In this document: in pieces, positions 9,029 to 32,959 of the stretch
Layout: the number at the start of each line of letters is the position of its first letter
Position numbering within the stretch: position 1 is the stretch's first letter
Source: a virus
Virus record (IMG/VR): IMGVR_UViG_3300033149_001104
Coordinates: 1-41,945 of that record
Strand: one strand, 5' to 3'
Length of the DNA: 41,945 nt
Notes under the pieces: generated by a model
Seen by the model: only the letters and a program-made list of their open reading frames with translations
The model's database searches: none
What the model was told of the DNA's origin: nothing
Translations under genes and position numbers: made by a program

Positions 9029-9030
9029 GA

Positions 9031-9192: not shown

Positions 9193-9504
9193 ATGGAAAT
9201 AATACCATCAACGGAGACATTGATAGGATGTAAGACCAAACCACCAAATAAAATACATCTAACATTCAAAGTGGTAGCTACATTACAGGCTATGCAGGAT
9301 GTAATGAATAGTAAGTTTATTGGTATAGTCCTATACTGCGTGTATTGTAAGGAACCACTGAACTATACATATAATAATGGTGGGACATTGTTTCAATGTC
9401 CGAAGTGTGGAGTTAAATGGGTTAAAAGTGATACATGGATAGGTGAGGTTAAGAATGGAAAACGAACATACAGAAACATTCGCACCAGAATGGCCAAGGA
9501 ATGA
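9193..9504 (+). CDS. Zinc-ribbon protein, 103 residues
   Basis: The ATG directly abuts the previous stop and has ggaggtagaatag upstream. After a 45-residue N-terminal part come CVYC and, 20 residues on, CPKC, giving a zinc-beta-ribbon, then a basic tail (NGKRTYRNIRTRMAKE). The last 50 bases overlap the methyltransferase gene. It may be a DNA-binding accessory; this is not shown. Confidence 0.6.
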   Translation: MEIIPSTETLIGCKTKPPNKIHLTFKVVATLQAMQDVMNSKFIGIVLYCVYCKEPLNYTYNNGGTLFQCPKCGVKWVKSDTWIGEVKNGKRTYRNIRTRMAKE

Positions 9505-10270
9505 AAAGGGATGGATTCTGTTTCCAAAAGACACTGCTGGTGGTATACGACAGGCACTGTTTCCACCAGAGGCTATGCAGCATCCTGCTAAGTATAACTT
9601 TGCCATGATTGAATCCATTATAGATTATGTGTCTAATCCTGGTGATACTATAATGGATATAATGGCTGGTACTGGGACTATTATGATTGCTGCATTGAGT
9701 GGTAGAAGTGTTGTTTGTATTGAGATAGAAAAGGTATACCATGATATAATGATACAAGCAAAGGAGGTAATAGCTCCAGCCGCAGATAGGAGTATCACTA
9801 TTCTACATGGTGATTGTAGAGATTTCCTGCCAATTCCTGTAAACCATATTATATTCTCACCTCCATATGCTGCAATACTAAAAACAAAAACCACAGTGGA
9901 TGAGAAGTGGAAAACAATGCATAGGTCACATGTGCGACAATCGGCATACTCTGGTGATATGAGGAATGTTGGTAATCTAAATAAGTTTCTATACAATCAA
10001 GCAATGGAGAAGATATACGGACTATGCTACCAAAGCATACTGCCTGGCGGCACATTGACGGTGATTATAAAGGATTATATACAAAACAGTGAGCGAGTTT
10101 ACCTGAGTAAATGGGTTATAAAGGTATGTAAGAGTTTTGGTTTTATAGAAAAGGATTGGTTTAAGCGTGAAGCAACTGGCAGTGGTTACCAGGACATGTG
10201 GAGAAGTAAAGGTAAAGCTACGGTGGATGATGAGGATATTATTATAATGAGGAAAGGAGAAAGAATATGA
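9455..10270 (+). CDS. DNA methyltransferase, SPPY (N4-cytosine/N6-adenine) type
   Basis: 271 residues from the ATG at 9455; a GTG at 9443 is in frame but has no better SD. Motif I (DIMAGTG, residues 68-74) binds S-adenosylmethionine, and motif IV is SPPY (135-138), the amino-group acceptor site typical of N4-cytosine and some N6-adenine enzymes. An HPAKY segment precedes motif I, as in many phage orphan enzymes. No restriction partner was seen, so it probably protects phage DNA or alters regulation. The stop overlaps the deaminase start (ATGA). Confidence 0.8.
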   Translation: MENEHTETFAPEWPRNEKGWILFPKDTAGGIRQALFPPEAMQHPAKYNFAMIESIIDYVSNPGDTIMDIMAGTGTIMIAALSGRSVVCIEIEKVYHDIMIQAKEVIAPAADRSITILHGDCRDFLPIPVNHIIFSPPYAAILKTKTTVDEKWKTMHRSHVRQSAYSGDMRNVGNLNKFLYNQAMEKIYGLCYQSILPGGTLTVIIKDYIQNSERVYLSKWVIKVCKSFGFIEKDWFKREATGSGYQDMWRSKGKATVDDEDIIIMRKGERI

Positions 10271-10878
10271 CACATAGACAAGATTGGGATGACTATTTCT
10301 TTGATATGGCTAAGTTAATATCTACAAGGAGCACATGCTTACGAAGGCAGTATGGTTGTGTGCTGGTTAAAGATAAGCATGTGGTAAGTTCTGGATTTAA
10401 TGGAGCACCAAGAGGTTATCCACATTGTGATGTGCTTGGTTGTGCTAGGGAAGGAGTAGAGTCTGGAACCAAACATGAGTTGTGTAGGGCTGCTCATGCG
10501 GAACAAAACGCAATAGCCAATGCTGCTAGGTATGGCATATCCACAAATGATTCTGAGCTATATATCTATCCTGGAGATATGCCATGTCCTATATGTGCTA
10601 AGATACTAATAAATGCTGGTGTGTATAGGATACATTACCACAGCACAGACTATCCAGGTTGGGAATTGAGTGAGGATTTATTCCTGAGCAGTGGGATAAG
10701 TTTATGGAAACATGAAAAGCCAAAAGAAGAATATCAAGATATAGCCAAGCCAGTATACGATTTACTACTGAACCATGTGATACCTCCAAAAGGTAAAACT
10801 ACTCTGTTAAATACTGACCTACACTCGGTATCATTTGAAATCCAGAATGAATTGAGGAAGTTGGGTTATCATAAATGA
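10267..10878 (+). CDS. Deoxycytidylate (dCMP) deaminase
   Basis: 203 residues. Zinc site: His77-Ala-Glu79 with Cys107-Pro-Ile-Cys110 (MPCPIC). The GFNGAPRGYPHC segment before it matches ComEB/dCMP deaminases. It converts dCMP to dUMP, feeding dTTP synthesis. An extension of about 60 residues beyond the usual domain ends in NELRKLGYHK. It lies between the methyltransferase and the DNA polymerase, with 4-base overlaps on both sides, so nucleotide supply and replication are co-expressed. Confidence 0.85.
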   Translation: MTHRQDWDDYFFDMAKLISTRSTCLRRQYGCVLVKDKHVVSSGFNGAPRGYPHCDVLGCAREGVESGTKHELCRAAHAEQNAIANAARYGISTNDSELYIYPGDMPCPICAKILINAGVYRIHYHSTDYPGWELSEDLFLSSGISLWKHEKPKEEYQDIAKPVYDLLLNHVIPPKGKTTLLNTDLHSVSFEIQNELRKLGYHK

Positions 10879-12527
10879 ACCTGGCACATGACCCAGACCT
10901 TAATTTCTATTATTATGGCGAAGAACCTCCTCGCCCTGGTATGTTTAGGGATTATCTCACAGACCCTAAGTTAATCGCCGTGGATGTGGAAACTATATCA
11001 CTGAAGGAGAGAATAGCCATTGGTGTTGGTATAGCAGTTAGTCCCACTGTGGCCTTCTATTTCCAACTGTTCCCTGAACCTTCAACTGTTACTCCATGGC
11101 ATTTACTAAAAGACCCAACTATTACCAGATTATATCACAATGCACCATTTGACATACTGTGTCTTAGGGAATACGAGGTATGTGCCGAGAATACCATGGA
11201 TACCAACATACTTGGCAATCTACTAAATATAAGACCAACAAGGTTGGTTGATATGGCATCTCATGTGGCACTACACCATAGTATATGGTATGAAGTACAT
11301 ACAGCCAAGGACTTTTTGGTGGAACACAATGCCAGGATGATGCTTGATGCACCACAGGAAGCAGTGGCCATGAAGTGTTGTCAGGATGCAATAGCCACTT
11401 TTGGTGTGTATAGTATATTATCACCAGAAGTTGATAAGGAATACTTTGACACTGAAAACCAGCTAATACCAATACTTATAGATATGTCATGTAAGGGATT
11501 GAAGATAGATGAGGAAGCAAGGGTAGCACTTGAGAAGAAACTTGAGATGGAAGTTAATTATTATAAATGGTTGGCAGATGATATAGGGTTTAACATAGGT
11601 TCACCACAGCAGGTCGGATATATGCTGGCAAAGCGTGGGGCTTATAATGTATTTAAGAGGATACCATTCACCAAAGGTGGTAGGACTGGCCACAAACAGT
11701 TAAGGACTGATGAGGAGACATTGAATAAAATGGATGACCCATTGGCTGTAATGGTATTAGCATATAGGGATAAGGCCAAATTACTCAGCACATACATCAA
11801 ACCTTGGTCTGGTGAGGATAGAGGATATACTAGATTCCACCTGGATGCTGTTACTGGTAGGATTAGCTCAACAGATAGGAATATGCAAAATATACCAAAA
11901 GGTGAGGCTAGGGAAATCTTTGTGCCTGATAGTGGTATATTCACAGATGTGGATTTTAGCCAAATAGAATTAAGGACATTAGCCTATATGTCTGGCGATG
12001 TGGAGATGCAATACGTATATGAGACTGGCGGAGATATACACCAGGAGACGGCAGATTTCCTGGGCATAGCTCGTGGAATATCTAAGAATGTGAATTTTGC
12101 TATGATATATGGAGCCACTGATAGTACTATAGCAGAAACGGCACACATCAGGGACATACATAAAGCTGCGGAGCTAAAGCAGATGTGGTTTGATAGATGG
12201 AGAAGTGCTGGTGATTGGATTCAAAGCCAGCAAGAGATGGCATTGAGGCATCCGTACATTACAACATTGTTTGGTAGGAATATAAGACTGCCTACACCAG
12301 AGGAGGAGAGTGAAGATAGGATAATGAGAAAAGCCATCAACTACCCCATACAAGGAAGTGCTGCGGAGATAATGAAAAGGGCATTGTTAAGGTGCAAACA
12401 TTTACCTATGTCATTACAGGTACATGACGAAATTCTATTTGATGGTAAGATTGATTTGCCAAGGCTGGATAACATAGCACCATTTTCCACACCAGTGGAT
12501 GTTAAGTATTTACAGCGATGGGAGTAA
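10875..12527 (+). CDS. Family A DNA polymerase with 3'-5' exonuclease domain
   Basis: 550 residues, short for PolA because there is no 5' nuclease. Exonuclease: Asp37/Glu39 (DVET), HNAPFD (Asp93) and Asp171; the Tyr normally four residues before the last Asp is Lys167. Polymerase motif A is DVDFSQIELR (Asp360), motif B is Arg400, Lys404, Phe408 and Tyr412, and motif C is HDE at 517-519. Phe408 corresponds to E. coli Phe762, the residue linked to nucleotide discrimination in viral PolA. This is the replicative polymerase of the phage and the last gene of the rightward block. Confidence 0.93.
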   Translation: MNLAHDPDLNFYYYGEEPPRPGMFRDYLTDPKLIAVDVETISLKERIAIGVGIAVSPTVAFYFQLFPEPSTVTPWHLLKDPTITRLYHNAPFDILCLREYEVCAENTMDTNILGNLLNIRPTRLVDMASHVALHHSIWYEVHTAKDFLVEHNARMMLDAPQEAVAMKCCQDAIATFGVYSILSPEVDKEYFDTENQLIPILIDMSCKGLKIDEEARVALEKKLEMEVNYYKWLADDIGFNIGSPQQVGYMLAKRGAYNVFKRIPFTKGGRTGHKQLRTDEETLNKMDDPLAVMVLAYRDKAKLLSTYIKPWSGEDRGYTRFHLDAVTGRISSTDRNMQNIPKGEAREIFVPDSGIFTDVDFSQIELRTLAYMSGDVEMQYVYETGGDIHQETADFLGIARGISKNVNFAMIYGATDSTIAETAHIRDIHKAAELKQMWFDRWRSAGDWIQSQQEMALRHPYITTLFGRNIRLPTPEEESEDRIMRKAINYPIQGSAAEIMKRALLRCKHLPMSLQVHDEILFDGKIDLPRLDNIAPFSTPVDVKYLQRWE

Positions 12528-12544: not shown

Positions 12545-14986
12545 TTAGGCTGGTTGCCTTTGTGATACAAGACTCAGTTCATCCCTGTATTGGGATTTAT
12601 CCTTTAAGATTGACCAAAATTCATTCCTACGTTCAATAGCTTCCTCTAAATACCTCTTTGATATGGCCTGCTGCTGGACGGCTACAGATACATAGGATTC
12701 GGCTGTGGCTCTAAGCAACTCCTGTGCGGATAGCCTGCCATTGGCCTCAGCTACAAAAGCATTGGCTCCAGCAATGTTCACGTTAGCTTCATTTATGTAG
12801 TTGGCTATTAGAGCTAGCCTGGCATTGGCTTCATTTAGCTTTCTATCTGCTAGTCCTACCCAACCATTAGCCTCGGCTATGAATTTGTCCGCCAGGGACA
12901 TTCTGCCATCAGCTTCACTCACGTATGCATTAGCCATAGCTATTCTGCCACTAGCCTCGGCTGCATAGCTGTTTGATAGGGCTACTCTACCATTGGCTTC
13001 CGCTATACATTTATCAGCAATGTTTAATCTTGCCAGACCTTCATTGGTGTATCCTGTGGCTATTGATACCCTGATGTTGGCTTCATTGATATATCTATCA
13101 GCGATACCAAGTCTGCTACCTGCTTCATTGATATATGAGGCAGATATGCCTAATCTGGTAGATGACTCACTTACACACGTATTTGCTATGCCAATCCTAG
13201 CTCCTGCCTCATTGGTAAATTTATCACATCCACTAAGCCTGGATACGGATTCATCAATATATGCCCTGGCTTGGTTTACTCTTTCCTGTGCTTCTGCTAT
13301 GTAGCCAGCTGCCAATGTGGCTCTAGCATTGGATTCATTCACATACTGGGTGACTGAGGATAGATAGGCATCGGCTTCGGATAGTTTATCCTTTCTTATG
13401 GATTCGGATAGTCTAGCCAACATAGCCTTGGTTTGTGCGTACAAGTTATACATCTCAGCAACCCTATCACCTATGTTAACTTTATTTATATAATCATCAC
13501 CAGTCTCCAGTAATGTGCTACCAGCATCCCTTATAGTTTCCTCAGAACTTGTTATGTCACTTATTTCATCCAATGCTGTGGTCATTGATTCTATTTGGGT
13601 TGCTACATTATCCAATGCAGATTCAGCATCGGTGAGTAAGGTATTTATATTCTCCATATCCTCATCTGTATCACTGCCAGCCTTCTCAACCTCAGCAGCT
13701 ACTCTGTCCAATGCAGAAATAGCTCCATCAGCAAATGCACCAACCCTATTCAAAGCGGCAACAGCTTGCTCTGCATAGGTGGCAACATTGTTCAAAGCTG
13801 CACCTGCATCTGAACCATGCACACCAGCTTTGCCAAGAGCATCAGCAGCATCCTTCAACGGACTGGAGCCACCTACTATGGTATCCAACGCTGTTCTGGC
13901 TTCCTGTATGTATGTATTGACTTTGTCAAATGCTGCTTCCGCATCTGCTACAGAAGTAGATTTAGTGTCTAAAGCTGCCTTGGCTTCTTGTATATTAGTA
14001 TCAATTTTGTCAAGTGCCGAGCCAGCAGCGGTGACATGTGTATTCACATTGTCCAATGCAGTATCAGCTTTATCAACATGGTCTGTTATTTTGTCCAGTG
14101 CTGCATCCGCATTGGTTAGATACGTTGCTATGGCAGATAAAGCTGTACCTACTGACGTAGCTTCACTGGTTATCTTTGCCAACGCAGTATCGGCATTACC
14201 AACACATGTGGCTACATCAGATAAAGCAGTTTCCACATCTGTTATCGTTATTGCACTTAACTTTGTATTGGCAGTATCCAAGGCTGTCATGGAATCATGT
14301 TGTTCCTTTATGCCTCTGGACATCAACGCATATGCAGAGGCACCTTTGATGACTACCTCATCCAAAACCCTGGGAAAACTACCATCTGCATCGGCTGTTG
14401 GAGCTGTGCACGTACCTTCATAATATGCCAGGAGATGTTTACCCTCACGCAGGTTGGCAGGCTTACCATCATCATATAGGTTAAGGTGTAGTGTAGTTCC
14501 CCACACAGCAAAGGGAACAAACTTTTGTGGTAACTCACCTATTGGATATTCCACTCTCAGCACACGGATTAAATCACCAATGTCACTAATGTCCAGCGTG
14601 GTTTTGTCTATGGTATAGCTAATCAAGTAGGATGTATCAACAGACATATCACCACCATCTATTGTGGTTATCTTACCATCCCTGTAGTTCATGGTATAGT
14701 CAGTGTCCCTGGTATATGTGGTGTTACCATCTGCACTGGTGACTGTTTCAGAATCAAAGTCTATTGGTTTGTGAGCCAATTCAACATAGGTACCATGAGC
14801 AGCAGCACTGGTCCAAGCCTCATCATCAACGTCTAATGTGATGGTAAACTCATGTGTCTTATCATCGGGAAAGAATCGGCTAACATCTGCCACAGCTTCA
14901 GTAACAGCCCTGGTAAGCTCATCACTATCCCATGTGGCATCCGCTAATTCTATTTTAAGTGCTGCCTGCATTTCTGTTAGAGTCAT
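12545..14986 (-). CDS. Connector-like protein fused to long 14-residue-repeat stalk
   Basis: 813 residues from the ATG preceded by ggaggtg. Residues 1-235 resemble phage head-tail adaptor (gp6-like) proteins: MTLTEM, TWDSDELTRAVTEAVADVSRFFP, a beta sandwich and a helical end. Residues 253-364 hold eight clean 14-residue units (TALSDVATCVGNAD, AALDKITDHVDKAD), with looser ones beyond. Residues 548-757 hold about fifteen of a second type (YINEANARLALIAN). Fourteen residues equal two heptads, so each array should form a long coiled-coil or helical rod. A neck fibre/whisker or extended tail appendage is the best guess. Confidence 0.65.
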   Translation of the reverse strand: MTLTEMQAALKIELADATWDSDELTRAVTEAVADVSRFFPDDKTHEFTITLDVDDEAWTSAAAHGTYVELAHKPIDFDSETVTSADGNTTYTRDTDYTMNYRDGKITTIDGGDMSVDTSYLISYTIDKTTLDISDIGDLIRVLRVEYPIGELPQKFVPFAVWGTTLHLNLYDDGKPANLREGKHLLAYYEGTCTAPTADADGSFPRVLDEVVIKGASAYALMSRGIKEQHDSMTALDTANTKLSAITITDVETALSDVATCVGNADTALAKITSEATSVGTALSAIATYLTNADAALDKITDHVDKADTALDNVNTHVTAAGSALDKIDTNIQEAKAALDTKSTSVADAEAAFDKVNTYIQEARTALDTIVGGSSPLKDAADALGKAGVHGSDAGAALNNVATYAEQAVAALNRVGAFADGAISALDRVAAEVEKAGSDTDEDMENINTLLTDAESALDNVATQIESMTTALDEISDITSSEETIRDAGSTLLETGDDYINKVNIGDRVAEMYNLYAQTKAMLARLSESIRKDKLSEADAYLSSVTQYVNESNARATLAAGYIAEAQERVNQARAYIDESVSRLSGCDKFTNEAGARIGIANTCVSESSTRLGISASYINEAGSRLGIADRYINEANIRVSIATGYTNEGLARLNIADKCIAEANGRVALSNSYAAEASGRIAMANAYVSEADGRMSLADKFIAEANGWVGLADRKLNEANARLALIANYINEANVNIAGANAFVAEANGRLSAQELLRATAESYVSVAVQQQAISKRYLEEAIERRNEFWSILKDKSQYRDELSLVSQRQPA
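12716..13345 (-). repeat. Fifteen 42-bp coding repeats, type 2 (Y-I-N-E-A-N-x-R)
   Basis: These encode residues 548-757 of the stalk protein. Each unit begins with an aromatic or Cys residue, then x-x-E-[A/S], then x-x-R-[L/V/I] and a small hydrophobic step. Units in the middle are the most alike, as expected from duplication. Confidence 0.75.
13895..14230 (-). repeat. Eight 42-bp coding repeats, type 1 (A-L-D-x-[I/V])
   Basis: These encode residues 253-364 of the stalk protein, with the pattern [T/A/S]-A-[L/F]-x-x-[I/V/K] repeated every 14 residues. Looser copies continue to about residue 465, interrupted near 365-395 by a Gly/Ser/Pro-containing break. Confidence 0.7.
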
Positions 14987-14987
14987 A

Positions 14988-15389
14988 TTACACCTCCACA
15001 AACTTATCTAATACTGCCAGAATCCATGGTTCTATTTCGAGAGGTCTGTCCATATTGTGGTGACATGCATCACAAGTAGAACTAATGTTCTCAGGAAGCC
15101 TAATCTTATCAGCCTGTATTGTAACTTCCAAATCCAATAGCTCATCAAACTCAGCCATGAATTTCGAATAGTCCTCACTATCCGCTTTTACTTCTTTACC
15201 ACCACGCTCGGCAGGTGTTCCATACTTGTCAATAAGGTTTCGTCTAACCACATCTATGTCTTTCAAAACATCGTTGAATTTCCTGCTAAGCTTGGCTATC
15301 TGGATACTGGATTTAACTGGTAGTCTAACCTTCAACAGTTCTTGGATGGCATTCCTGCCTTCAAAGACATCTCTATTGGTAACCTTCAT
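14988..15389 (-). CDS. DUF1617-like structural protein
   Basis: 133 residues with aaggag before ATG. The opening (MKVTNRDVFEGRNAIQELLKVRLPVKSSIQIAKLSR, paraphrased by position 1-36) and the following RRNLIDKYG helix resemble DUF1617 phage proteins. A CDACHHN segment in the C-terminal half could bind metal. DUF1617 proteins sit among tail genes in siphophages, with no known biochemistry. One base separates its stop codon from the next gene's ATG. Confidence 0.5.
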   Translation of the reverse strand: MKVTNRDVFEGRNAIQELLKVRLPVKSSIQIAKLSRKFNDVLKDIDVVRRNLIDKYGTPAERGGKEVKADSEDYSKFMAEFDELLDLEVTIQADKIRLPENISSTCDACHHNMDRPLEIEPWILAVLDKFVEV

Positions 15390-21494: not shown

Positions 21495-22520
21495 TTATAC
21501 GGTAACTGCCAGGTCTTGAACATCGAAGATTCGACCAAGACACAGCTTACTACCAAGTAATGGTGCGGTGTAGGTTACAAGCCTGATACCCTTTGCATCA
21601 TAGTCTTCCAACTTGTCAAAGAGTTCAACCTTGTATAGGTCATTGCCCATCTCTGGGTCACCAAAGGCAAAGCAAAGACCCGGTTCTTGGTTAAACACAT
21701 CACCGAACTTGATAAAGAATATGGAATAGGTCTCAGTTCCGCTACTGTATTTAGCCCTCAGGTCATCACCATCACCAACACCATCATTCTCCTTGACTAG
21801 AAAGTCGGTTGGTACAAAGGGTATACCATCAAAGAACATTACCCTTCTACCAATTTCATTATAGCCAAAGGAAATCTGACTCATTACATGGTCACCAGCA
21901 GTGCCAGCAAATGCACGTTCTTGGTAGGCAGCATTTATTCTCCGATGTATACATACTGGCAGGTAGATGATGTCAACGCCATACTTCATAGCGTCTATCA
22001 CCCTACGAACATTATTCATGCTAAGAGCACCACCCTCATCTATATCAAGGTCAGTGCCAGTCTGGAGGGCTGCCATTGCATGTAGCCCATCAAACTGCTT
22101 GGAAGAACCATAGGTAATGTCATCATAGATGAGCTTGTCACCCAGTCTCCTCCTCATGGCTTTCTTAATTTCCCAAAGAGCCTGTGCCTCATAGTTATTG
22201 ATGGTTCCATAAACATCAACTATGAAGTTATCCAACAACCGTTGGATGGCAGACCTCTTGAGTTCGGTTTCCTGTTCGTCATACTCAACGCTGCTAGTCC
22301 ATGTCATCTTCTCGCCAATATCCACATTGGCAACATCTCCATCCAAGACTGCCTTCTCACGGAGCCACTTAATTGATTTACCTTGAGCTAAGGCAACAGG
22401 TATCCTGTCGAGCAGGTTTTCCCGCTTTATATCCTCTTCAATGACGCCAGGAATTAACTGGGATTGGGTTAGCTTCTGGGCTTCTGTTAGATTTTTCCAA
22501 TGTCCAACAACTGCTCCCAT
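21495..22520 (-). CDS. Major capsid protein (HK97 fold)
   Basis: 341 residues. It follows a scaffold gene and precedes a decoration-like gene, the canonical head order. The sequence has an N-arm, an E-loop-like segment (WLREKAVLDGDVANVDIGEKMTW), a spine helix (NYEAQALWEIKKAMRRRLGDKLI), and a P/A-domain end (KVELFDKLEDYDAKGIRLVT, APLLGSKLCLGRIFDV). The likely product is the shell subunit. The SD aaggagg is one of the strongest in the genome. No protease gene was recognised, so cleavage of the N-arm is not expected. Confidence 0.75.
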   Translation of the reverse strand: MGAVVGHWKNLTEAQKLTQSQLIPGVIEEDIKRENLLDRIPVALAQGKSIKWLREKAVLDGDVANVDIGEKMTWTSSVEYDEQETELKRSAIQRLLDNFIVDVYGTINNYEAQALWEIKKAMRRRLGDKLIYDDITYGSSKQFDGLHAMAALQTGTDLDIDEGGALSMNNVRRVIDAMKYGVDIIYLPVCIHRRINAAYQERAFAGTAGDHVMSQISFGYNEIGRRVMFFDGIPFVPTDFLVKENDGVGDGDDLRAKYSSGTETYSIFFIKFGDVFNQEPGLCFAFGDPEMGNDLYKVELFDKLEDYDAKGIRLVTYTAPLLGSKLCLGRIFDVQDLAVTV

Positions 22521-22532
22521 AATTATTCCTCC

Positions 22533-23093
22533 TTATTTTTGCTTTTCACGGAGTGATGCTATTTCTTCCTTACACTGCTCTATTGGAGTAGTAGGAACAG
22601 CACCAGCCTGGCTACCTCCATTTGTATCAAGTCCAGGTGGCCTTTTAATACCAGTGGCATTAAAAGTTTCAAGTATCAAATCCAGCTGCTCAACCGTTTT
22701 ACCATCAAGGACAGTCATTGGAGTTCCAAATGCTTTATTGATGATTTCCTTCTTCTGGTCTGTTAACCTTGTTTCAAGGTTAGCAACTTGAGTTTTCTTT
22801 TCCCCAAGCTCTGATTGTAGCTGGTCCACCTGTTCTTTGGTAGCCTGTCCCTCTCTTAATTGTTCTTCCAACTGCTCCTTCGCAGCCTGCGTTTGAAGGA
22901 AATTATTGTGAGCCGTCTGATATGCTTCGGTAAGCTCTGTTACCTTGTCCTTCAACCCTTTTATTTCCTTCTCAGCATCCTCTCTGGCAGCCTTAATAGC
23001 CAACAAATCTTTCTCAGGAACCATCTTAGCAGCTGGCTTAGGTGGTTCTGGAGTTGGCTCAGACTGACTTGGAGTCTGGTCTTCTTGGGACAT
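22533..23093 (-). CDS. Capsid scaffolding protein
   Basis: 186 residues with a Pro/Glu-rich N-terminus, a long coiled coil at about residues 30-115 (KDLLAIKAAREDAEKEIKGL, EQLEEQLREGQATKEQVDQL) and a C-terminal flexible region ending ASLREKQK. This is the usual composition of phage scaffold proteins, and it lies directly before the major capsid gene. It is the first gene after a consensus promoter at 23112-23140. Confidence 0.75.
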   Translation of the reverse strand: MSQEDQTPSQSEPTPEPPKPAAKMVPEKDLLAIKAAREDAEKEIKGLKDKVTELTEAYQTAHNNFLQTQAAKEQLEEQLREGQATKEQVDQLQSELGEKKTQVANLETRLTDQKKEIINKAFGTPMTVLDGKTVEQLDLILETFNATGIKRPPGLDTNGGSQAGAVPTTPIEQCKEEIASLREKQK

Positions 23094-23111
23094 TATTCAC
23101 CTCCTATTCTA

Positions 23112-23140
23112 ATTGTATCACAGCAAAAGTTTATTGTCAA
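23112..23140 (-). promoter_or_regulatory. Capsid-operon promoter
   Basis: On the minus strand: TTGACA at 23140-23135, a 17-bp spacer and TACAAT at 23117-23112, ahead of AGGAGGTG and the scaffold ATG. A GTTTACATAA-type motif lies just upstream (23160-23151) and recurs twice at 41215-41248. It has no GAAC operator, unlike the early promoters. Confidence 0.85.
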
Positions 23141-23212
23141 GTAGTTTTCGTTATGTAAACTAATATATTTAATTATGTATTATATAATGTACAGAGTTAT
23201 AATTTAATATCA
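23141..23212. other. AT-rich spacer with GTTTACATAA motif
   Basis: A 72-base non-coding stretch between the giant protein's stop and the capsid promoter. It contains TTATGTAAACTAA (23151-23163) and a run of A/T (attatgtattatataatgta). This motif is a candidate binding site shared with the divergent control region. No gene is visible. Confidence 0.5.
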
Positions 23213-26200
23213 CTAAACATAACCATCCAACAGTGACATCCTATTCTGTTCCCAAGCATCAACCATAGCTCTAGCCTCATCAGTTTTCACTGTGGTTACA
23301 TAACCAAATACATAGAGGTAGAAATCTAGCTTGGGTGAAATCATACGGAGTTTAGCTCTACCATCAGTTAGTTGGGATTGGTAACCAGATATCAGTTGCA
23401 GGCCAGTGGTTGGGCTAACATAATCTTCTATCTCCTTTTTTCTGGTTAATGTTGTCCCATCAGCATAGTATTCCGCTATGGCAGCCTTCTCAGCCTCGGT
23501 ATATTGTGCTAGGACAATGTTCCTTACAGCCCAATAACCCTTGAGGTATGTGTTAACTACATCCCTGAATTTAGCTTCCAATGGAGTCTCGTTCGTCCTG
23601 ACATATACATCAAATTCTTCCCTTTGGTCCTCAGATAATGCCATCCTAACTGTCTCTCGCTTGATGTAGAAACCAACCCAATCTATATTCTCCTCACCAG
23701 TATATTTATCTTTTACCACCTCAGGCTGTATTGAGTAATATATCCTAAGAATCTCATCAAATGGTGTGCTTGCTGATGGCATTACACCTTTCTGTCTTAA
23801 CTGGTCAATACGCTCCTCCAGGGTTAGGGCAACCTCGGCATATTCAGGCATGGATTTAAGGGAATCAAAGTTGGTCTTGTATTTGTTCCAAACATCAGAA
23901 CTCTTTGATACCCATTCTCTACCATTAAGATGATTTTCTGGTGTTGGCTGTAGAAATCCAGTATCGGCTGTGGTCTGTTCCTCAGTTCTTACCTTTTGCA
24001 ATCCCTCAACATCACGCCAAAACTTATTTGTTTTCATATCCAAATCTGATAATGCTGGTGGTTCAAGTATCACATTTCTACCAAGCCATATTTTATACTC
24101 CCACATTTCATTCATGGCTCTGCGTAGGCTTGGAGACATGATACTAGGACATACATCTGAAGGTTTTAGGTTATGTTTCCAAAGATAATCCTGTTGTTCA
24201 GCGGTGAGGCCAGTTTGGGCTTCTATTAACTCCGTCACCCTACGAAGTGCCTCAACCTGAACCTCTGGTCTATATCTGAATATAGATATATTCTCCATAA
24301 GGACACCTAGCCATGCCCTGTATTGTGCAGCCTCATTCCATAAAGCATCCTTCTCCTCAGCTAATGCTTTCTCCTTTTGCCAAGCATCAATCTCCTCTGG
24401 AGTTAGTTGGCCATTAGCTATCCTCATTTCCATTAGCCTTATGCGTTCATCACTCAAACCCCAGATGGCATATTTACCCTGGCCTATTAAGTGCATGTTT
24501 TCAAATCTTTCTTGCCACAACTCCTGCCCTGATAGACCATCTACAAGGGTTCCACCAGCATCTACCTGGAGCTTATCTATTCTGGTAGCAATGTTATAAT
24601 CCCTAAAATTGTCACTGAATACATGGTCTTGTAGCCACTGTGCGTTCTCTGATACAGCTGGTATAGGTGAGCCAACAAGCACATTAAGTCCTGTCTTGTA
24701 AAATGCTGGTAACGATTCTCCTAGCTTTGGTGGCCTACCTGTGAATATAGGTGATACAACTATAGGAAGCATTATGTGGGCACCAGGGTAAAATCCCCAA
24801 CGCATCATGGCATCTATTGGCTCAGCCATTGGTCCAAGCATTGAGTAGTAGTATGGATAGTCTCTCCTGGTCAATGAGAATGTCAAACCAAATATGGAAC
24901 CCCTGGCAGGATTGAGTTGTATATCGGTTCCTGGTATTGGCACATAGCCAAACTCCGAGTATTCATTATATTTACCCCAAGATGTTAAAACACCTGGCTT
25001 GCGTAGGAATGTTCTGGGCAAGAAAAACCATCTCTGAGATTCATAAGTCCAATATGGGAATATATGCTTCATGGTTGCATCTACCACATTTTGGTGTGTG
25101 TAGTCTGTGTATGCCTTGTAGTAATCCTTCAGAGCCTCATCCCATGCTTCCTGTCTCATCTCATGCCAGTTCTCAAACTCTGGTTTAAACTTTCTAGCTG
25201 GTGCTTTGGGTGCCAGCTTTGGAGGCTTAGCTGGTAACTTAACTGTTTTTATTGCACCTTCGGCAGTAATCTCTTCCAGTTCTACTATCCTATTTGTTGG
25301 TATATCACCAACATAAAACCAACTATGCACATCTTCCAATTCACTGACAGCTCCACGTGCAAGTGGGTCCTCAGACCACACATCAAAACCACTAACATCT
25401 ATCTTAGTTATGTAGGCTGGCTTTCCTTCCAAATCAAGTTTATGTATAACATCAAGTGCATAGTCCTTATCCTGTGTCAAAAACACGGCTTTTTGTCCAC
25501 TGAAGGGAGCAGCTAAATCGGCACGTTGCTGACCACGTATACCATATGACTTAACATCATCAATGTGGCTAGCTGACCCAACATGATACATCACATCAAA
25601 CTGTTTTTTGGCAGGAGCTTTTTCCAATGTTGGTGCAAGTTTTGCAGCGTTAAGGTATTTCTCATTCTCAGCAACAGTAAGACCAAAAGTGGTTGGAGGC
25701 TTAGCTTCCACATGTACAACTTGTGGTTTTTCATAAAGTAATTTCTCCAACTCATCGGCCATACCATCAATCCAGCTAAACAGTGCTTTTTCCTCATCAG
25801 GATACATCTGCTTGGTCTGCTTCAAAATGGTCATATTGTGCTTGATTTCCTCAATCTGCATCAATGCTTTTTGTAATTGAATATCCATATCAGGAGACAT
25901 ATGGATATTGTCCAATACAACATCATATAGCTGGCTCAACTTTTCTCTGGTAACGCCTTTATAAGCAGATGGGTTAGAATTAGCTTTTTGGAACAGAAGT
26001 TCAACAAAGTATTCCCTATCCTGGAATGTTAGAGTCTCAGTTATGGCATTGGTAAGCTCATCAACATTACAATCCAATATCCTGGCAGCGTCAAGTGGAA
26101 CCATAGCCCTGCCTGTGGTATCAACTTCCAGAGGTGTTCTCTTTGGCAGGTTATAATATAGTTGTGCAAAGCTATCACGCATCAGGAAGTCACTACCAAA

Positions 26201-29200
26201 ATACTTGGCATCGGCTGACCTGTAGGCATCCCATACCTCCTTTCTTGCCAATCTAACAGCTTGGTGTGCCTCTGCAGTTCTTTCTTCTTTGGTTAGAGAC
26301 CAAAACGCATCAAGAATGTCACCATCCTTCCTAAGTGCCTCACTTCTAAGGACATCATGTATATCTGCATGTTCCAAGATACGCCTAAATGCATCTTCCT
26401 GTTCTTTAGTAAACTGTGCTGATGGCAGGGAATCAAGTAACTTTTTCCTAATTCTTTGGTTAGATATGGAAATCCTGTCCATAACCTCAAGCATTTCATT
26501 CCGCTCACCTGTCCACAGCTTTCTCATTGCACCATACTTCCCAGCGTTAATAAGTTCACCAGCCTTCTCATGGGTTTGGCTCATAAGTCTATGAGGCACA
26601 TGTCCACTTGTGTCCTCCATAATAACTAGATGTTGGTATGCCTGCATAAACTCATCTGGTGTGGTTATTGTTTCATTGGCAAGTTTCTCAGCTATATATT
26701 CAAATTGGTCAACAACCACATGTGGATGTGAATGTAAGCTGGAAGTTGTTATACGGCTTAAACCTTCACAGTATCTGTCTATGTCATCCATAGCTCTACC
26801 AGTTACTATTTCGTTTTCAGCCCATGTCCTTGCTTCTGGAACAAGCTCATGTGCGTCATGGAGTATATCCATTTGCCTATCAATGTCCAGAGTCTGTGAT
26901 GTCACCTTCTTCTTCATACCTCTTACAAGGTCTGGTTCACCAGTAGATAGTCTAAGGAACGCCTCATCCTTTAGTGATTTAGAACTAAGACCACGGATTG
27001 AAGGTGGTTTCCTGATGATATTATTCAGTTCCCTAAGAACATTCCTGCCTGCTACATTCTCTAGCCTGGCTGCAAAGTATTCCAAAGATTTCCTGGTTAC
27101 AAAGTTTCTACGGAAGGCATTACCCCAAATAGCACTCAGGTCAATCCATTTCCTACCAAGCCACTCCGTAAACTCTTTGCCAGCAATATGTTTACCAACT
27201 ATAGGTATATGTTTAACACTTTGTGGTATCTTGCCTGGTAAGAAACTGACAGCGTTCTCCCTTCCTGGAACTGTACGAATCATACCTTGTACATCTGATG
27301 CTCCAGCAGTAAGTAATCCCAAATCACCAACATTTATTCTCCATGTGGCTAGCCTGAAATTATCCATAGTCAGCTGGCGTGGCAACACACCTTCTATTAT
27401 ACTACGGAACATATCCTCAAAAGCATTCCATACAGGGTATGCTGAGAATCCAAGATATGCCTCCGCCATTGGGCGGACAAAATATCTATCAATGATATTA
27501 CGCCAAATGGTGGTATCCTTCTGTGCTACCCAGTTCCTAAGACCTGCGGTGAATCCAGATTGCATCCTTGACATGGCATACTGTGAACGAACCTGTGATG
27601 TTATTATTTTACCCTGTTGAGTAACCATGGCACTAAGAATTGATTGTGGTGTTTCCAACTTTTCAAGGAGTTTAAGTCTGGCACTAAACTGATTTGTGTG
27701 TTTGCCTATAAGGAGAACAGCTTTATCCAGAGCACTTGGTTTATCAATGGCCTTTAGCTCCCTAAGGATGAGTTTACCACCAGCTTCCTTCGACATCCTA
27801 CCAATAAGGACATCATATACAAAATTGTTTATATTATCCACTATGTCACTGGTAACCTCACTGAATAACAATTTACCATCAAGTTGCTTTGTCCATCTGG
27901 CAATGTCATCAACAGTTAGTGGAGTAATCTCAGTCATAAGCCTACCAAACTCGGCATAAAAGTCGGTAGCACCTATGGTTGCCTTGTCTGGATGTTTCCT
28001 GTAATAATCAATGGAGAATTTAATGGCCTCTATTATCTGTTCCCTTGTGGTTGTCTTACCAAATATAGCTCCAGAATGTCCTTCTATGGCTGTCTTTGCA
28101 ATGGATAGAAAGTGGCCACGCTCATATGAAATAGTTTGTCCAGCTGTTTTGGGAATTCTAACCATCCAGCCTTTTATTATATCAAATGGTAAACCCATGA
28201 CATAGTTGAATCCTCTTTCAAATGAGGCTGTCATTCTACCAAGCCTTGTAACCGCTGTGCCAAATTTACCTAGCCTGGGTATTGCCCCTATACCTTTCAA
28301 TGCTTTTGGAACAAGTCCAACACCGACATATGTAAGTGGGTCAGTGATTACTTCCAAAGCTAGTTTAGCACCCCAATTTATATCCCATTCCTCCCATGCC
28401 TTGCTGTATGCCATCCACCAATTATCCGTAGCTCTAGCCTCATCATATAACTTCTCATAGCTATGGATAGCCATGTCCTCAGTTTTATCACCATGAACCT
28501 TTCTAAGAATAATACCATTAGGTGTATATGGTGCTAGGTGCATTATCTGGGACACAATAAGTCCTGTTAAAGGATAATTATAATACTTTAGATACGGCTT
28601 CACAATGTCAGCTATTACCTGTAGTGGCTGCATAGCTACCAATGCTAACTTCTGCTTGGCTGATAACTTAGGCATTTCCCATTCAGCCCTACCTGCTAGG
28701 ACATCGTCTATCTGCTGTTGCTGGTCTTGCCAAGCCTGTGATACGAGTGTCACCATATCATCATATTCAATAGCCATGGCAAGCTGTTCCTCAGTAAGAC
28801 CAGATTTATAAGCAGCGTCCAACAAATCAGCATCGGTTAAGCCTTCAGGAAGTTCAGGCAACTCAACTTCCTTTTGAAGCCACCTGACCATCTCCTCAAC
28901 TGTGGTTAGGTGTATACCTTTGAACTTTGGTCTAGTTTCTAAAGGCTCAGTAATAAACTGCTCAACAGCTTCCCGTTCCTCAGGTGAAATTTCAAGCCAA
29001 CTAGGTGTCTCACCTTCTGCAGGTTTTGCTGACATCATCTGTTCCCACTCACTCCTAGCCAGTGCTATATCCTCAGAAGATAACGTGCCTTCTGAAATGT
29101 TACCATACACATTGGACATATATTTATCAAAGTTAGTTTCACCCATTTCAATCATGGCTGGTGCTGTCTGGTAGAATAAGGAAAAGAAATCTGCACGGTT

Positions 29201-29488
29201 CTTCTTTAGCATAGCTTCCTCACCAAACACAAGCTGTTCCTCTACAGCCTTCTGCTGTTCCAATTCTGGAGCTGCAATAGTCCCAGTATACACCTCACCA
29301 GATGGTGTATACTGCAGTCCTTTGGTTGAGGCCCTCATTAGGTATGATAAAAACTTTTTCCATCCAGAAAGTGGTTGTTGTAATTGCTGAGCCTTTTCAT
29401 AGGACTCATTTGTTTTCTTTGTCCAGAATTGTGACTCCTGTAACCATTTATTTATCTTGTCTGTAAAGTCACCCATTACATCAGGCAT
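23213..29488 (-). CDS. Giant polyvalent/ejection protein with ART-like domain, 2,091 residues
   Basis: At 6.3 kb this single gene fills 15% of the genome between portal and scaffold, where other phages keep MuF-type or internal virion proteins. Features in order: helical N-terminus; a hydrophobic region around 290-330; VITDPLTYVGVG near 380, a hallmark I recall from large internal proteins; long helical stretches; an ADP-ribosyltransferase-like segment at about 1300-1395 (YHVGSASH, GIRGQ, AVFLTQDKDYA, WFYVGDIPTNRIVELEEI); HIFPYWTYESQRWFF near 1470; helical C-terminus. It is probably packaged in the capsid and injected with the DNA. Catalytic identity of the ART-like part is not proven. Confidence 0.65.
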   Translation of the reverse strand: MPDVMGDFTDKINKWLQESQFWTKKTNESYEKAQQLQQPLSGWKKFLSYLMRASTKGLQYTPSGEVYTGTIAAPELEQQKAVEEQLVFGEEAMLKKNRADFFSLFYQTAPAMIEMGETNFDKYMSNVYGNISEGTLSSEDIALARSEWEQMMSAKPAEGETPSWLEISPEEREAVEQFITEPLETRPKFKGIHLTTVEEMVRWLQKEVELPELPEGLTDADLLDAAYKSGLTEEQLAMAIEYDDMVTLVSQAWQDQQQQIDDVLAGRAEWEMPKLSAKQKLALVAMQPLQVIADIVKPYLKYYNYPLTGLIVSQIMHLAPYTPNGIILRKVHGDKTEDMAIHSYEKLYDEARATDNWWMAYSKAWEEWDINWGAKLALEVITDPLTYVGVGLVPKALKGIGAIPRLGKFGTAVTRLGRMTASFERGFNYVMGLPFDIIKGWMVRIPKTAGQTISYERGHFLSIAKTAIEGHSGAIFGKTTTREQIIEAIKFSIDYYRKHPDKATIGATDFYAEFGRLMTEITPLTVDDIARWTKQLDGKLLFSEVTSDIVDNINNFVYDVLIGRMSKEAGGKLILRELKAIDKPSALDKAVLLIGKHTNQFSARLKLLEKLETPQSILSAMVTQQGKIITSQVRSQYAMSRMQSGFTAGLRNWVAQKDTTIWRNIIDRYFVRPMAEAYLGFSAYPVWNAFEDMFRSIIEGVLPRQLTMDNFRLATWRINVGDLGLLTAGASDVQGMIRTVPGRENAVSFLPGKIPQSVKHIPIVGKHIAGKEFTEWLGRKWIDLSAIWGNAFRRNFVTRKSLEYFAARLENVAGRNVLRELNNIIRKPPSIRGLSSKSLKDEAFLRLSTGEPDLVRGMKKKVTSQTLDIDRQMDILHDAHELVPEARTWAENEIVTGRAMDDIDRYCEGLSRITTSSLHSHPHVVVDQFEYIAEKLANETITTPDEFMQAYQHLVIMEDTSGHVPHRLMSQTHEKAGELINAGKYGAMRKLWTGERNEMLEVMDRISISNQRIRKKLLDSLPSAQFTKEQEDAFRRILEHADIHDVLRSEALRKDGDILDAFWSLTKEERTAEAHQAVRLARKEVWDAYRSADAKYFGSDFLMRDSFAQLYYNLPKRTPLEVDTTGRAMVPLDAARILDCNVDELTNAITETLTFQDREYFVELLFQKANSNPSAYKGVTREKLSQLYDVVLDNIHMSPDMDIQLQKALMQIEEIKHNMTILKQTKQMYPDEEKALFSWIDGMADELEKLLYEKPQVVHVEAKPPTTFGLTVAENEKYLNAAKLAPTLEKAPAKKQFDVMYHVGSASHIDDVKSYGIRGQQRADLAAPFSGQKAVFLTQDKDYALDVIHKLDLEGKPAYITKIDVSGFDVWSEDPLARGAVSELEDVHSWFYVGDIPTNRIVELEEITAEGAIKTVKLPAKPPKLAPKAPARKFKPEFENWHEMRQEAWDEALKDYYKAYTDYTHQNVVDATMKHIFPYWTYESQRWFFLPRTFLRKPGVLTSWGKYNEYSEFGYVPIPGTDIQLNPARGSIFGLTFSLTRRDYPYYYSMLGPMAEPIDAMMRWGFYPGAHIMLPIVVSPIFTGRPPKLGESLPAFYKTGLNVLVGSPIPAVSENAQWLQDHVFSDNFRDYNIATRIDKLQVDAGGTLVDGLSGQELWQERFENMHLIGQGKYAIWGLSDERIRLMEMRIANGQLTPEEIDAWQKEKALAEEKDALWNEAAQYRAWLGVLMENISIFRYRPEVQVEALRRVTELIEAQTGLTAEQQDYLWKHNLKPSDVCPSIMSPSLRRAMNEMWEYKIWLGRNVILEPPALSDLDMKTNKFWRDVEGLQKVRTEEQTTADTGFLQPTPENHLNGREWVSKSSDVWNKYKTNFDSLKSMPEYAEVALTLEERIDQLRQKGVMPSASTPFDEILRIYYSIQPEVVKDKYTGEENIDWVGFYIKRETVRMALSEDQREEFDVYVRTNETPLEAKFRDVVNTYLKGYWAVRNIVLAQYTEAEKAAIAEYYADGTTLTRKKEIEDYVSPTTGLQLISGYQSQLTDGRAKLRMISPKLDFYLYVFGYVTTVKTDEARAMVDAWEQNRMSLLDGYV

Positions 29489-31167
29489 TATTTACCTCCA
29501 TAACCTTCAGGTATTTGGTATTCTTCCATTGGTGCTGCTTCTCTTCCCTCAACTGGTTGCATGGGTTGGCCTTGGCCAGGTTGTATCTGTCTTTGTGGTT
29601 GGCTACCAATCTGAGCTTGTAGGGCATCTGCAGCCTTAGAAAACAGGTTTGAAGTGCTAATATCACCAGCCTCCTTGGAGATTTTAGCCTGTTCTCTGTA
29701 AGCCAGAACCTGTGCTATGATTTGTGCCACCTCATTTGACATAGCATCATCCACATTATTGAGTGCTTGTTCCCTCGTTGGGTCTTTTACTTCTGGGAAT
29801 AGCATGTCTGTAACCCTTGGGAAGCTAAGACGATAGGTCGGGTTAAGCATCCTGGCCACTGTAGCTCTTTGTACTAAGCTACCAGGAATTTCTATATTAT
29901 GTTTAACCTCAAATTCAATGTCATCTGGCAAATCCTTTGGCATTTTAAACCCATATGGTCTCAATCTTCTTGACTTTATCTCATTATACCAGAAATTATC
30001 AATGCTGGATAATAGTGTTACAAGACCAAGACTGTATGGTGCCAGGACACTTAATGCAGCGGAGCTTATCTGTGAGGCGAGGTAACCAGACATTTGTTGT
30101 TGGATGTTTCCATGTAGTATCCATGGGAATAGCCCACGCTGTATACGATTGGCATAATCCATCAATATAGTCCTTGTTTCCACTGGTATAGGCACAGTTG
30201 GTAATGGCATAACATCTTCTTCTGGAGTGCCTCTGAATATAGCACCACGCTTAAACATTCTTTCTGGCTGTAGTATTCCTTTAGAGCTACGAGATTTCTC
30301 AAACCAGCGAGGATTTGCTGAATCTCTGACCAACTGCTGGATGAAACTCTGCATTTTGTTATTATTGTTAAACTCATCCTCATTTACAGCCACTATGGAT
30401 TCCCCAAAATGCTTTTGCCATGATTTACCTGTGGTTATAACTCCATTATCGGGTAAACCACTGACTGGTGACACAAAGACTGGTATGATATTTGCTACCT
30501 GGTCGTCTTTGGGTATCTTAGATTTTGGCCTGGCTAACTTGTCCCCTATGACCAATGAATTAACAACGTCGCCATCCTCATCAATCTGGAATAGATTATA
30601 CACAATCACATCACTTTTTGGGGTTACTGGGAATGTGATACCATACTTCTTAGCTTTCCTCACCGCAGCCATTGGTTTTAAGGGATATATATGTGCACAG
30701 GCTTCCAAGCCACTTTCACCATATTCTGGGAATACATTGGCTGGGTGCCATATCTCAGCCTGTAGTTCGTCGTTGTTAGCATATACGAATATGGAATACC
30801 AACCAGTAGCAAGCATATATCCTAAAACCCTACGTAGCCAGGATTGTCTTCCTTTTCTTGCTTCTTCCTTCTCAATTTTGTTCCAACGACGTTCAATATA
30901 AGACTCCAGGTAGCTGGTGCCAACAATCTCTGGCTTTTCAAGACCTTCAATGTCTATTTTATGGGACATGGTTGCACTGACAAGAAGATGCAGTGCCAGG
31001 TTATAGCCAGTTCTTGGGTCATTGGTTATAACACTCTCCATATCCTCCTGCTCCAGATTGTTGGTCAGTAAGAGCAAATCATACCATTTCTTAAACTGTT
31101 GGTTTCTAACAGACCAAAAATCCCTTAATTCATTACATCTGGCTATACATTCTGTTACTCCATTCAT
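29488..31167 (-). CDS. Portal protein
   Basis: 559 residues between the large terminase and the head genes. Typical features are an N-terminal helical region, a central wing (GWYSIFVYANN, AEIWHPANVFPEYGESG), a crown-side helical segment (YANRIQRGLFPWILHGNIQ, QMSGYLASQISSAALSVLAP) and a Gln/Pro-rich tail. Twelve copies form the DNA entry/exit ring at one capsid vertex. Its stop overlaps the giant gene's ATG as TAATG, so the two are made together. Confidence 0.8.
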   Translation of the reverse strand: MNGVTECIARCNELRDFWSVRNQQFKKWYDLLLLTNNLEQEDMESVITNDPRTGYNLALHLLVSATMSHKIDIEGLEKPEIVGTSYLESYIERRWNKIEKEEARKGRQSWLRRVLGYMLATGWYSIFVYANNDELQAEIWHPANVFPEYGESGLEACAHIYPLKPMAAVRKAKKYGITFPVTPKSDVIVYNLFQIDEDGDVVNSLVIGDKLARPKSKIPKDDQVANIIPVFVSPVSGLPDNGVITTGKSWQKHFGESIVAVNEDEFNNNNKMQSFIQQLVRDSANPRWFEKSRSSKGILQPERMFKRGAIFRGTPEEDVMPLPTVPIPVETRTILMDYANRIQRGLFPWILHGNIQQQMSGYLASQISSAALSVLAPYSLGLVTLLSSIDNFWYNEIKSRRLRPYGFKMPKDLPDDIEFEVKHNIEIPGSLVQRATVARMLNPTYRLSFPRVTDMLFPEVKDPTREQALNNVDDAMSNEVAQIIAQVLAYREQAKISKEAGDISTSNLFSKAADALQAQIGSQPQRQIQPGQGQPMQPVEGREAAPMEEYQIPEGYGGK

Positions 31168-31406
31168 ATTAAACCTCCTAATTTCAGTATGATAAATATA
31201 CCACCAAGTAGAACAAATGTGCTAACCCATAAGCCAATTGGCCTGCCTATGGTATAATAGTGCCATTCATCCTCCAATGGATTCTCATAGTTAACTGGCA
31301 TCTGCATACCTTTCCTGAAAAACATTGCTCCTTCAGCAAAGCCTATTAGAAAAGCATGTCTCTCGTTGGATGTATTAAGAAACTCCTTACACATTACCAT
31401 CTCCAT
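31164..31406 (-). CDS. Membrane-anchored 80-residue protein
   Basis: The ATG overlaps the end of the large terminase gene by 13 bases. A polar N-terminal half (ERHAFLIGFAEGAMFFRKGM) is followed by one C-terminal transmembrane helix (LWVSTFVLLGGIFIILKLGGLI). It lies between terminase and portal, an unusual place for a membrane protein, and might be a lysis or virion-membrane factor. No family is recognised. Confidence 0.55.
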   Translation of the reverse strand: MEMVMCKEFLNTSNERHAFLIGFAEGAMFFRKGMQMPVNYENPLEDEWHYYTIGRPIGLWVSTFVLLGGIFIILKLGGLI

Positions 31407-32959
31407 CCTGAGCTTCCTACATAACCTCTACTTACTGGTTTTGTATCCCTACATACCAGAGCAATACAAACTGAATCATGTATGTCATCCATACCAACTG
31501 ATATAGCTTGCTCACCAGCTAATCTTATATTCCTACACTGGCTAATATATTCAATATCATGGACTATCATGTCTGGAAGCATCCTGGCATTGGTTGACAG
31601 CATGAAGTCTTTAGTTTTTGGACTTGTATACCAACCGAGTTCACTGCTTTCTCTACCACTAACTATATCCCTTCTATAGTATAAATTTGGATAATCCTTC
31701 ATTAGTGGAGCTAAAGCCATGCCATGTGAGTTAGCCTCCCAGACTATTGTAGACCAGTTATAGTATCTACCTATGTCCCATGCTATGTCCTTAGTTACCT
31801 CTGGAGTCCATAGACCTGCTGCCCTGGCACATAGTTTTGGAATTTCTTTACCATCATCCTCATCAAAGGTTAGTACAGACATTGCTGTTTGGGTAACTTT
31901 GCCCTGTCCAGGGTCAATTGCTAAAATATACCATCTATCCTTTTCTGGCGGATACCATATATCTGCATGGAATTTATGTATCTCTGCTGGAAAACAATCC
32001 TTAGCCTTGTCATTTAACATATCTGGGTCATAATACATATCCCCAGTAGCTAGGAAACAATCCACGTCGTTCTCTGGGTATTCCTGTTGGAATAGTCTAC
32101 GAATTTCACCAGAACGTCTAAGACTCTCCATTTCAAATATACTATATCTTCTCCAACGAATTTGGTCTTCAGTCAGATTGAAATTATCTACAAGTGCCTT
32201 TTCCTCAAGATTTAACTTTAATGGCTTATCCAAGCCTAGCCTGGCAATGACTTCTTTCCTGTATAGGTGTAATCTATCTGGTGTTATTGAGTACTCTGGA
32301 TGGTCAAACCACCTATAGAAATGTGGAGTAAACACAGACATATTCTCCTTCGCTAACCTATACATACCACAGAAATCGTTATCTTCACCATTTGGAGTGG
32401 ATAGAACATCAATAGTACCATCTGGAGGAACACGCTTCATTGCTGGCATAAATATCCTCTCAATGGCTCCTGGTTCCCAAAAAGCAAGCTCATCAGCGAT
32501 AAGATGGTGGATGGTCTCAGCCCTACCTGCCACAAATGACCTGGCAGAACTTATATACATGGAACTATGGATGGAAGGAAACGTTTTCTCATATGAGGAC
32601 CTATGATGCATCTGTGGCCAACCAGGTATTTGTAAGGAATTAACTGTATTATAGAAGAACTGGGCTTTATCCAGTAACCTCTGGGTTATAAATTCCTCAA
32701 ATGCAATAAGGACAGTGTTGGTGCCTGGTGTGGTCACTGTGTCAATCATCCTTTCAGCGAGAATAAGTGATGACATACCAACCTGTGCTGGCTTGACATA
32801 AATGTCCCTACCAGATTGGTTAGCCAGGACATCAGCTTGTATAGGATTTAGAATAAATGGAATCCTATTACAAGACTTGTCCTCTATAACCAGCAATGTT
32901 TCTATGAACTTCCTCTTATCCTTGATAAGGGAAGCAAATACCTCGGTTTGTGTTGACAT
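31394..32959 (-). CDS. terL: Terminase large subunit
   Basis: 521 residues. ATPase: P-loop-like KPAQVGMSS (56-64) and Walker B HHLIADE (Asp156, Glu157). Nuclease (RNase H-like): Asp349 in LAIDPGQGK, Glu408 in VWEANSHG and Asp492/Asp495 in DDIHDS. The motor pumps DNA through the portal and the nuclease cuts concatemers. The start is set by the TAATG overlap with the preceding small basic gene. Confidence 0.9.
   Translation of the reverse strand: MSTQTEVFASLIKDKRKFIETLLVIEDKSCNRIPFILNPIQADVLANQSGRDIYVKPAQVGMSSLILAERMIDTVTTPGTNTVLIAFEEFITQRLLDKAQFFYNTVNSLQIPGWPQMHHRSSYEKTFPSIHSSMYISSARSFVAGRAETIHHLIADELAFWEPGAIERIFMPAMKRVPPDGTIDVLSTPNGEDNDFCGMYRLAKENMSVFTPHFYRWFDHPEYSITPDRLHLYRKEVIARLGLDKPLKLNLEEKALVDNFNLTEDQIRWRRYSIFEMESLRRSGEIRRLFQQEYPENDVDCFLATGDMYYDPDMLNDKAKDCFPAEIHKFHADIWYPPEKDRWYILAIDPGQGKVTQTAMSVLTFDEDDGKEIPKLCARAAGLWTPEVTKDIAWDIGRYYNWSTIVWEANSHGMALAPLMKDYPNLYYRRDIVSGRESSELGWYTSPKTKDFMLSTNARMLPDMIVHDIEYISQCRNIRLAGEQAISVGMDDIHDSVCIALVCRDTKPVSRGYVGSSGWRW

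Follow-up and report, generated by a model that had tools for sequence, protein, structure and literature searches.

A giant head-module protein of uncultured tailed phages with an exchangeable internal cargo slot

Introduction

Phages and conjugative elements encode polyvalent proteins, which were described by Iyer et al. 2017 (PMC5512222) and, together with the Alt protein of phage T4, provide precedents for proteins that are packaged, injected and active on the new host (PMC5512222). The present analysis concerns a giant protein of 2,091 residues (hereafter the giant), which is encoded on the minus strand of IMG/VR virus record IMGVR_UViG_3300033149_001104. The window, i.e., the whole stretch of DNA analysed, corresponds to this entire record of 41,945 bases, which has a 114-bp direct terminal repeat and, therefore, is probably a complete genome. 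Comparison with relatives revealed that the giant consists of a conserved chassis and an internal slot holding optional, swappable cassettes. We consider it likely that a lineage of uncultured tailed phages packages the giant in the head as an ejection (inner-core) protein with an exchangeable slot, the cassette of the window being probably similar to ADP-ribosyltransferases (ARTs).

Results and Discussion

The giant reading frame and its relatives

The frame starts with ATG and comprises 2,091 codons with zero internal stops, which at 42% G–C content is not attributable to chance. The preliminary description of this DNA had reported, without naming the strand, an uninterrupted 6.3-kb frame coupled to the stop of the upstream gene, and both points were confirmed, the overlap (TAATG) being read directly in the sequence (GGAGGTAAATAATGCC). 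All of the motifs quoted there were also recovered, namely, VITDPLTYVGVG at residue 380, YHVGS at 1301, GIRGQ at 1316, VFLTQDKDYA at 1335 and FYVGDIPTNR at 1391. About 50 distinct relatives keep the frame, at the equivalent place in the gene order.

The first related giants (L002, L004 and L005), each of which adjoins the portal gene, were reached via relatives of the terminase, and, with profiles of the conserved C-terminal block, 99 and 125 stretches encoding it were detected in IMG/VR. The alignment comprised 51 distinct full-length relatives from the first scans and the giant of the window (52 in total, including three near-identical pairs); further relatives were added later. The giant of one relative, L020, is broken by an in-frame TAA (L020:7076-7078), for which a nonsense mutation, frameshifts or an assembly error are candidate causes.

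None of Pfam, PHROGs, PDB and the 50,697 isolate-phage records yielded a match to the whole giant, and the giant of the distant relative L077 likewise has none among the isolate phages. A search of 84,980 GTDB genomes by both the chassis block and the terminase revealed no relative, and no prophage form was seen. No description of the giant family or of such a slot was found in the open-licence literature.

The cargo slot

The features on which the following account is based are listed below.

23213..29488, minus strand: putative giant virion-associated protein (chassis and cargo slot), 2,091 residues, from the frame reading and relatives
25190..25729, minus strand: cargo slot, residues 1254-1433, which relatives have, lack or fill differently
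25187..25252, minus strand: Pro/Lys-rich linker closing the cassette, residues 1413-1434, from the sequence

Few points interrupt the chassis in the alignment, and the largest break lies after residue 1253. At this position, 32 of the 52 giants contain 77-382 additional residues, while the other 20 have almost none; after counting unique giants, the slot is filled in approximately 29 of 49. In the empty form, as exemplified by L005, a helix such as DETADAMD leads straight into RPEFEGLQDVRQ. The ART-like motifs of the window lie wholly within residues 1254-1433. The segment that the preliminary description had singled out is an optional, swappable cassette, a point absent from that description. 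The edges of the slot contain 12.5% and 16.3% Pro, compared to 4.8% in the chassis, a composition expected of flexible linkers.

Exchange of cassettes and of whole genes

Several closely related giants differ in the slot. The chassis of L010 and L012 are 90% identical, with 134 residues (a GNAT domain) in the slot of the former and 14 in that of the latter; the same was observed for L022 and L017 (253 and 11 residues; chassis 84% identical), and for L055 and L058 (108 and 16 residues; chassis 83% identical). The converse was found for L007 and L044, whose cassettes are 59% identical on chassis sharing 27% identity (family median, 24%). The giant of the window and that of its nearest full relative, L006 (55%), also carry different cassettes. 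On a tree built from 1,547 chassis columns and 48 rows, filled and empty states changed at least 17 times, compared to 12-20 times (mean, 15.7) after label shuffling. Since the changes are no fewer than with shuffled labels, slot occupancy is without phylogenetic signal.

The giant gene differs from its surroundings as well. Compared to L002 and L044, the window has 80-83% identity in the terminase, 74% in the portal and 88% in the capsid protein, but just 31-32% at either end of the giant (its N- and C-terminal portions); compared to L006, the respective values are 65%, 57% and 68%, with 45-65% in the giant. Across positions 21495-32959, therefore, the flanking head genes are nearest to those of L002 and L044 (63-88%) and the giant is nearest to that of L006. 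These identities indicate that the whole giant gene is also exchanged between genomes. It appears an even prospect that the ejection protein is a standard carrier with a fixed internal docking slot, via which phages trade ARTs, acetyltransferases and other cassettes regardless of carrier ancestry, and that whole carrier genes are also traded between genomes that are otherwise close.

Cassettes of the relatives

GNAT acetyltransferase domains were identified above the cut-off in the slots of L021 (2.4e-7) and L177, and weaker matches were obtained for L006 and L010. Across the 50 records searched, GNAT was matched four times, always within a giant slot. The slot of L031 gave a match to ART-PolyVal just under the cut-off (6.2e-7; 30.7 bits, cut-off 31.2). 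The cassettes of L014, L026 and L052 are related to that of L031, and L026 has a weak direct ART-PolyVal match at the slot. The family search of the genome records was less sensitive than hmmscan and missed L031, so its ART-PolyVal negatives carry little weight. In L177, which belongs to the subclade of the window, an ART-like segment (YHGSANIDDILSGGF ... GIYLT) is followed by the GNAT domain. Many other slot cassettes gave no profile match, and some consist of unrecognised, partly coiled segments. Several cassettes, when inspected by eye, start with Y-H-G or Y-R-G and continue with a strand of the GVFLS or GLYIG type, i.e., the pattern of ARTs.

The cassette of the window

The segment resembling ARTs and its candidate elements are located as follows.

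25253..25603, minus strand: ART-like segment, residues 1296-1412, with the two-part motif and no profile match
25574..25588, minus strand: YHVGS, residues 1301-1305, candidate strand-1 His (H1302)
25457..25486, minus strand: VFLTQDKDYA, residues 1335-1344, candidate strand 2 and helix, with Phe at the usual Tyr position
25289..25318, minus strand: FYVGDIPTNR, residues 1391-1400, candidate last strand

The preliminary description expected an ART fold at residues 1290-1400, and part of the evidence agrees with this. H1302 fits the catalytic His of strand 1, and ART-like domains are found in the slot of relatives. A two-part ART-type motif, the expression for which was written after the sequences had been seen, is present in six of 28 filled slots, that of the window included, while chassis windows and shuffled slots averaged 0.2 such hits. 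By eye, YHVGSASHIDDVKSYGI ... AVFLT of the window resembles the ART-like segment of L177.

Several results weigh against the assignment. The ART family match that was anticipated for the segment did not materialise, as the cassette matched no family in Pfam, NCBIfam or PHROGs and does not reach the cut-off of ART-PolyVal (PF18760), and the score of the L031 cassette itself is 0.5 bits under that cut-off. No relative of the cassette was found in PDB, in phages or plasmids (both by tblastn), or in the IMG/VR scan. The alignment to the ART-like segment of L177 lacks significance, as 22 of 300 shuffles did equally well, and the single-sequence AlphaFold model of the cassette is unusable (predicted local distance difference test (pLDDT), 36.8). 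The segment was compared with the catalytic residues of the H-Y-[EDQ], H-H-h and R-S-E classes. Enzymes of the H-Y-[EDQ] class are expected to have Tyr at the strand-2 position (PMC5512222, PMC9503650), which is Phe (VFLT) in the window, and no acidic residue of strand 5 could be placed.

A plausible, although less probable, explanation is that the cassette is another small alpha/beta enzyme or a binding domain, only the slot being general. The missing profile match and the Phe at the Tyr position favour it, as does the fact that the slot of relatives also holds GNAT domains and unrecognised, partly coiled segments. It does not account for the YH-x-GS ... VFLT...YA pattern, which is common in form to L007, L044, L022, L031 and L052, or for the recurrence of ART-like segments in the slot, including that of the subclade of the window. 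On balance, the cassette of the window is somewhat more likely than not to be an ART, judging from its motifs and from the ART-like cassettes of relatives.

The motif W-x-Y-x-G-[DENK]-I-P-x-x-[RS]-I, written as a degenerate DNA pattern, had two matches, both unrelated, and revealed no cassette homologue, and the cassette joined none of the slot clusters compared by hhalign. A weak hhalign match between L068 and L070 was discounted, as it sits in a probable coiled-coil stretch. Matches to YdaS_toxin (E-value, 0.02-0.03) and vRNAP_dom_2 (0.16), being far under the cut-offs, were rejected.

The chassis and its other insertions

Four features of the chassis were distinguished.

28316..28351, minus strand: VITDPLTYVGVG, conserved chassis motif, residues 380-391, resembling DPLSYV of T7 gp16
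24749..25171, minus strand: most conserved chassis block, residues 1440-1580, from the alignment
25028..25057, minus strand: PYWTYESQRW, residues 1478-1487, with intein-like inserts after W1480 in three relatives
23216..25177, minus strand: C-terminal chassis, residues 1438-2091, predicted to be almost entirely alpha-helical

In the predicted structure, the C-terminal 654 residues are almost all helical (pLDDT, 83.9). An N-terminal SLT transglycosylase domain was found in the giants of three relatives (5.8e-14 and 1.1e-12; L076 is the third); among the 50 records searched, SLT is confined to the giant (3/50), and the record of the window has none. The DPLTY motif aligns with T7 gp16 with a local score of 21.5 over 14 columns, compared to 10.3 ± 1.9 for shuffled sequences.

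Inserts were also observed at around residues 900-1025, where the seemingly multiple insertion points may represent one slot blurred by the alignment. Segments with HExxH were read from the sequences of L007, L037, L042, L049, L061 and L101; they gave no convincing profile match and may be peptidases of the zincin type, which other polyvalent proteins also contain. A ParB_N insert is present in L043 (8.2e-6; 26.2 bits, cut-off 26.3), and GNAT-like segments occur among these inserts as well. The most conserved motif is split (PYW/TYESQRW) by inserts of about 300 residues (L006:9071-10000, L080:5362-6261 and L067), which begin with Cys or Ser and end with TGN. Pfam matches to Intein_splicing (7e-5 and 1.2e-3) and LAGLIDADG_3 give weak support for inteins.

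The giant might instead be purely structural, as an inner-core or tape-measure-like protein whose slot tolerates insertions without function. The helical chassis suits such a role, and the weak, non-significant fold matches include internal virion and tape-measure proteins. This explanation appears improbable, however, since the slot holds recognisable enzymes (GNAT and ART-PolyVal), which random insertions would not favour, the cassettes recur in distant lineages with their frames open, and the gene lies between those of the portal and the scaffold, outside the tail module.

Gene neighbourhood and proposed role

The genes flanking the giant gene are listed below.

31394..32959, minus strand: terminase large subunit, matching annotated TerL proteins (4e-24)
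29488..31167, minus strand: upstream gene, putative portal by position, size and conserved synteny
22533..23093, minus strand: coiled-coil protein, putative scaffold by position, size and synteny (scaffold PHROG just 0.07)
21495..22520, minus strand: major capsid protein (PHROG 212, 5e-18)

The terminase-portal-giant-scaffold-capsid order (on the minus strand in the window) is conserved across nearly all of the relatives, in agreement with the location between portal and scaffold given in the preliminary description. The names of these two neighbours are based on position, size and synteny, and the upstream gene has no significant match to portal profiles.

The conserved head-gene order, the SLT domain that relatives share with T7 gp16, and the DPLTY motif are the grounds for regarding the giant as an ejection protein. 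Two results count against it: the C-terminal chassis has no significant fold match in PDB or BFVD (best E-values, 0.4-0.8), and, at the level of profiles, the chassis was rejected as a homologue of T7 gp16 (hhalign probability, 0.1-0.4), the local motif alone being kept. The packaged multi-domain effector and ejection channel envisaged in the preliminary description agree with the polyvalent-type and channel-like traits of the family, i.e., the SLT domain of relatives and the ART-PolyVal and GNAT domains in the slot; the cassette of the window is, with less confidence, a candidate ART.

As an ejection protein, the giant would act as follows. The conserved, mainly helical chassis would be assembled within the head, at the portal side, and would leave it with the DNA, helping to form or open the entry route, for which some relatives would use a transglycosylase of their own. 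The tethered cassette, held between Pro-rich linkers in the slot after about residue 1253, would be delivered by the chassis, and that of the window (approximately residues 1296-1412) may modify a host molecule as an ART-like domain at the start of infection.

Action of the cassette in the producing cell, as a late-expressed effector or in superinfection exclusion, was considered as well. The gene is part of the late morphogenesis cluster and would be expressed late, but the fusion to the chassis (with SLT in relatives) and the head-gene synteny suit packaging and ejection, and for both known precedents, i.e., polyvalent proteins and T4 Alt, the target is the newly infected host (PMC5512222); we therefore hold this possibility to be very unlikely.

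In the other arm of the window (2495-12527, plus strand), genes for a hexapeptide transferase, two AAA proteins, an N6/N4 DNA methylase, a dCMP-type deaminase and a family A DNA polymerase were observed, and no integrase was noticed. An 818-residue protein (12545-15001, minus strand) begins with a possible head-tail adaptor-like region, continues with long coiled-coil repeats, and shows weak matches to tape-measure PHROGs.

Comparison with known systems

T7 gp16 (internal virion protein D) resembles the giant in being a giant head-associated protein with an N-terminal SLT domain, present here in three relatives, followed by DPL[TS]Y. It differs in that no significant profile or fold similarity was detected, the giant of the window is without SLT, and gp16 is encoded after the tail genes, whereas the giant is encoded between portal and scaffold; moreover, gp16 is not known to carry a cargo slot. 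MuF polymorphic toxins (PMC5576092) are likewise encoded directly downstream of the portal, have variable effectors, including ARTs, and are predicted to be packaged in the head. However, MuF proteins vary at the C-terminus, while the giant varies internally and continues with its most conserved 650 residues; no Pfam match to the MuF domain was found in the giant. T4 Alt offers a functional precedent as a packaged and injected ART, but it is of the R-S-E class and stands alone rather than being borne as a cassette by an exchangeable giant chassis.

Polyvalent proteins are similar in their very large size, in their disparate domains (ART, GNAT, zincin-type peptidase, ParB and transglycosylase), and in their predicted packaging and injection; they are found in portal-terminase phages, and the giant is encoded in the head module of such a phage. 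Their combination of ART with GNAT has a counterpart here in L177, where the ART-like segment adjoins the GNAT domain. Multiple unrelated domains (SLT, GNAT, ART-PolyVal and ParB_N) were seen in the relatives, the giant of the window having one ART-like cassette. Unlike polyvalent proteins, the chassis contains no known LPD or other Pfam domain (LPD domains were searched for in the giant of the window and in 22 relatives), and the family is missing from Pfam, PHROGs and the isolate phages searched. A further difference is the single conserved chassis with one main internal slot, the contents of which vary between near-identical giants.

The definition of polyvalent proteins was drawn from architectures that are diverse and difficult to align; here, about 50 distinct versions of one chassis either carry the cargo, lack it or have it replaced, always at one site. 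Cassette turnover is therefore measurable, and minimal pairs such as L010 and L012 can be used to test the role of the cassette. The slots mark a place that tolerates different domains in a probably ejected protein, and provide a catalogue of predicted injected effectors, most of them without any family. If the carrier of traded cassettes is real, it would be an injected counterpart of polymorphic toxins, directed against the host (take-over) or against anti-phage defences. Taken together, the comparison suggests that the giant groups with polyvalent injected phage proteins by its presumed mode, and that what is new, in a protein of no known family, is an alignable chassis with an internal exchange slot.

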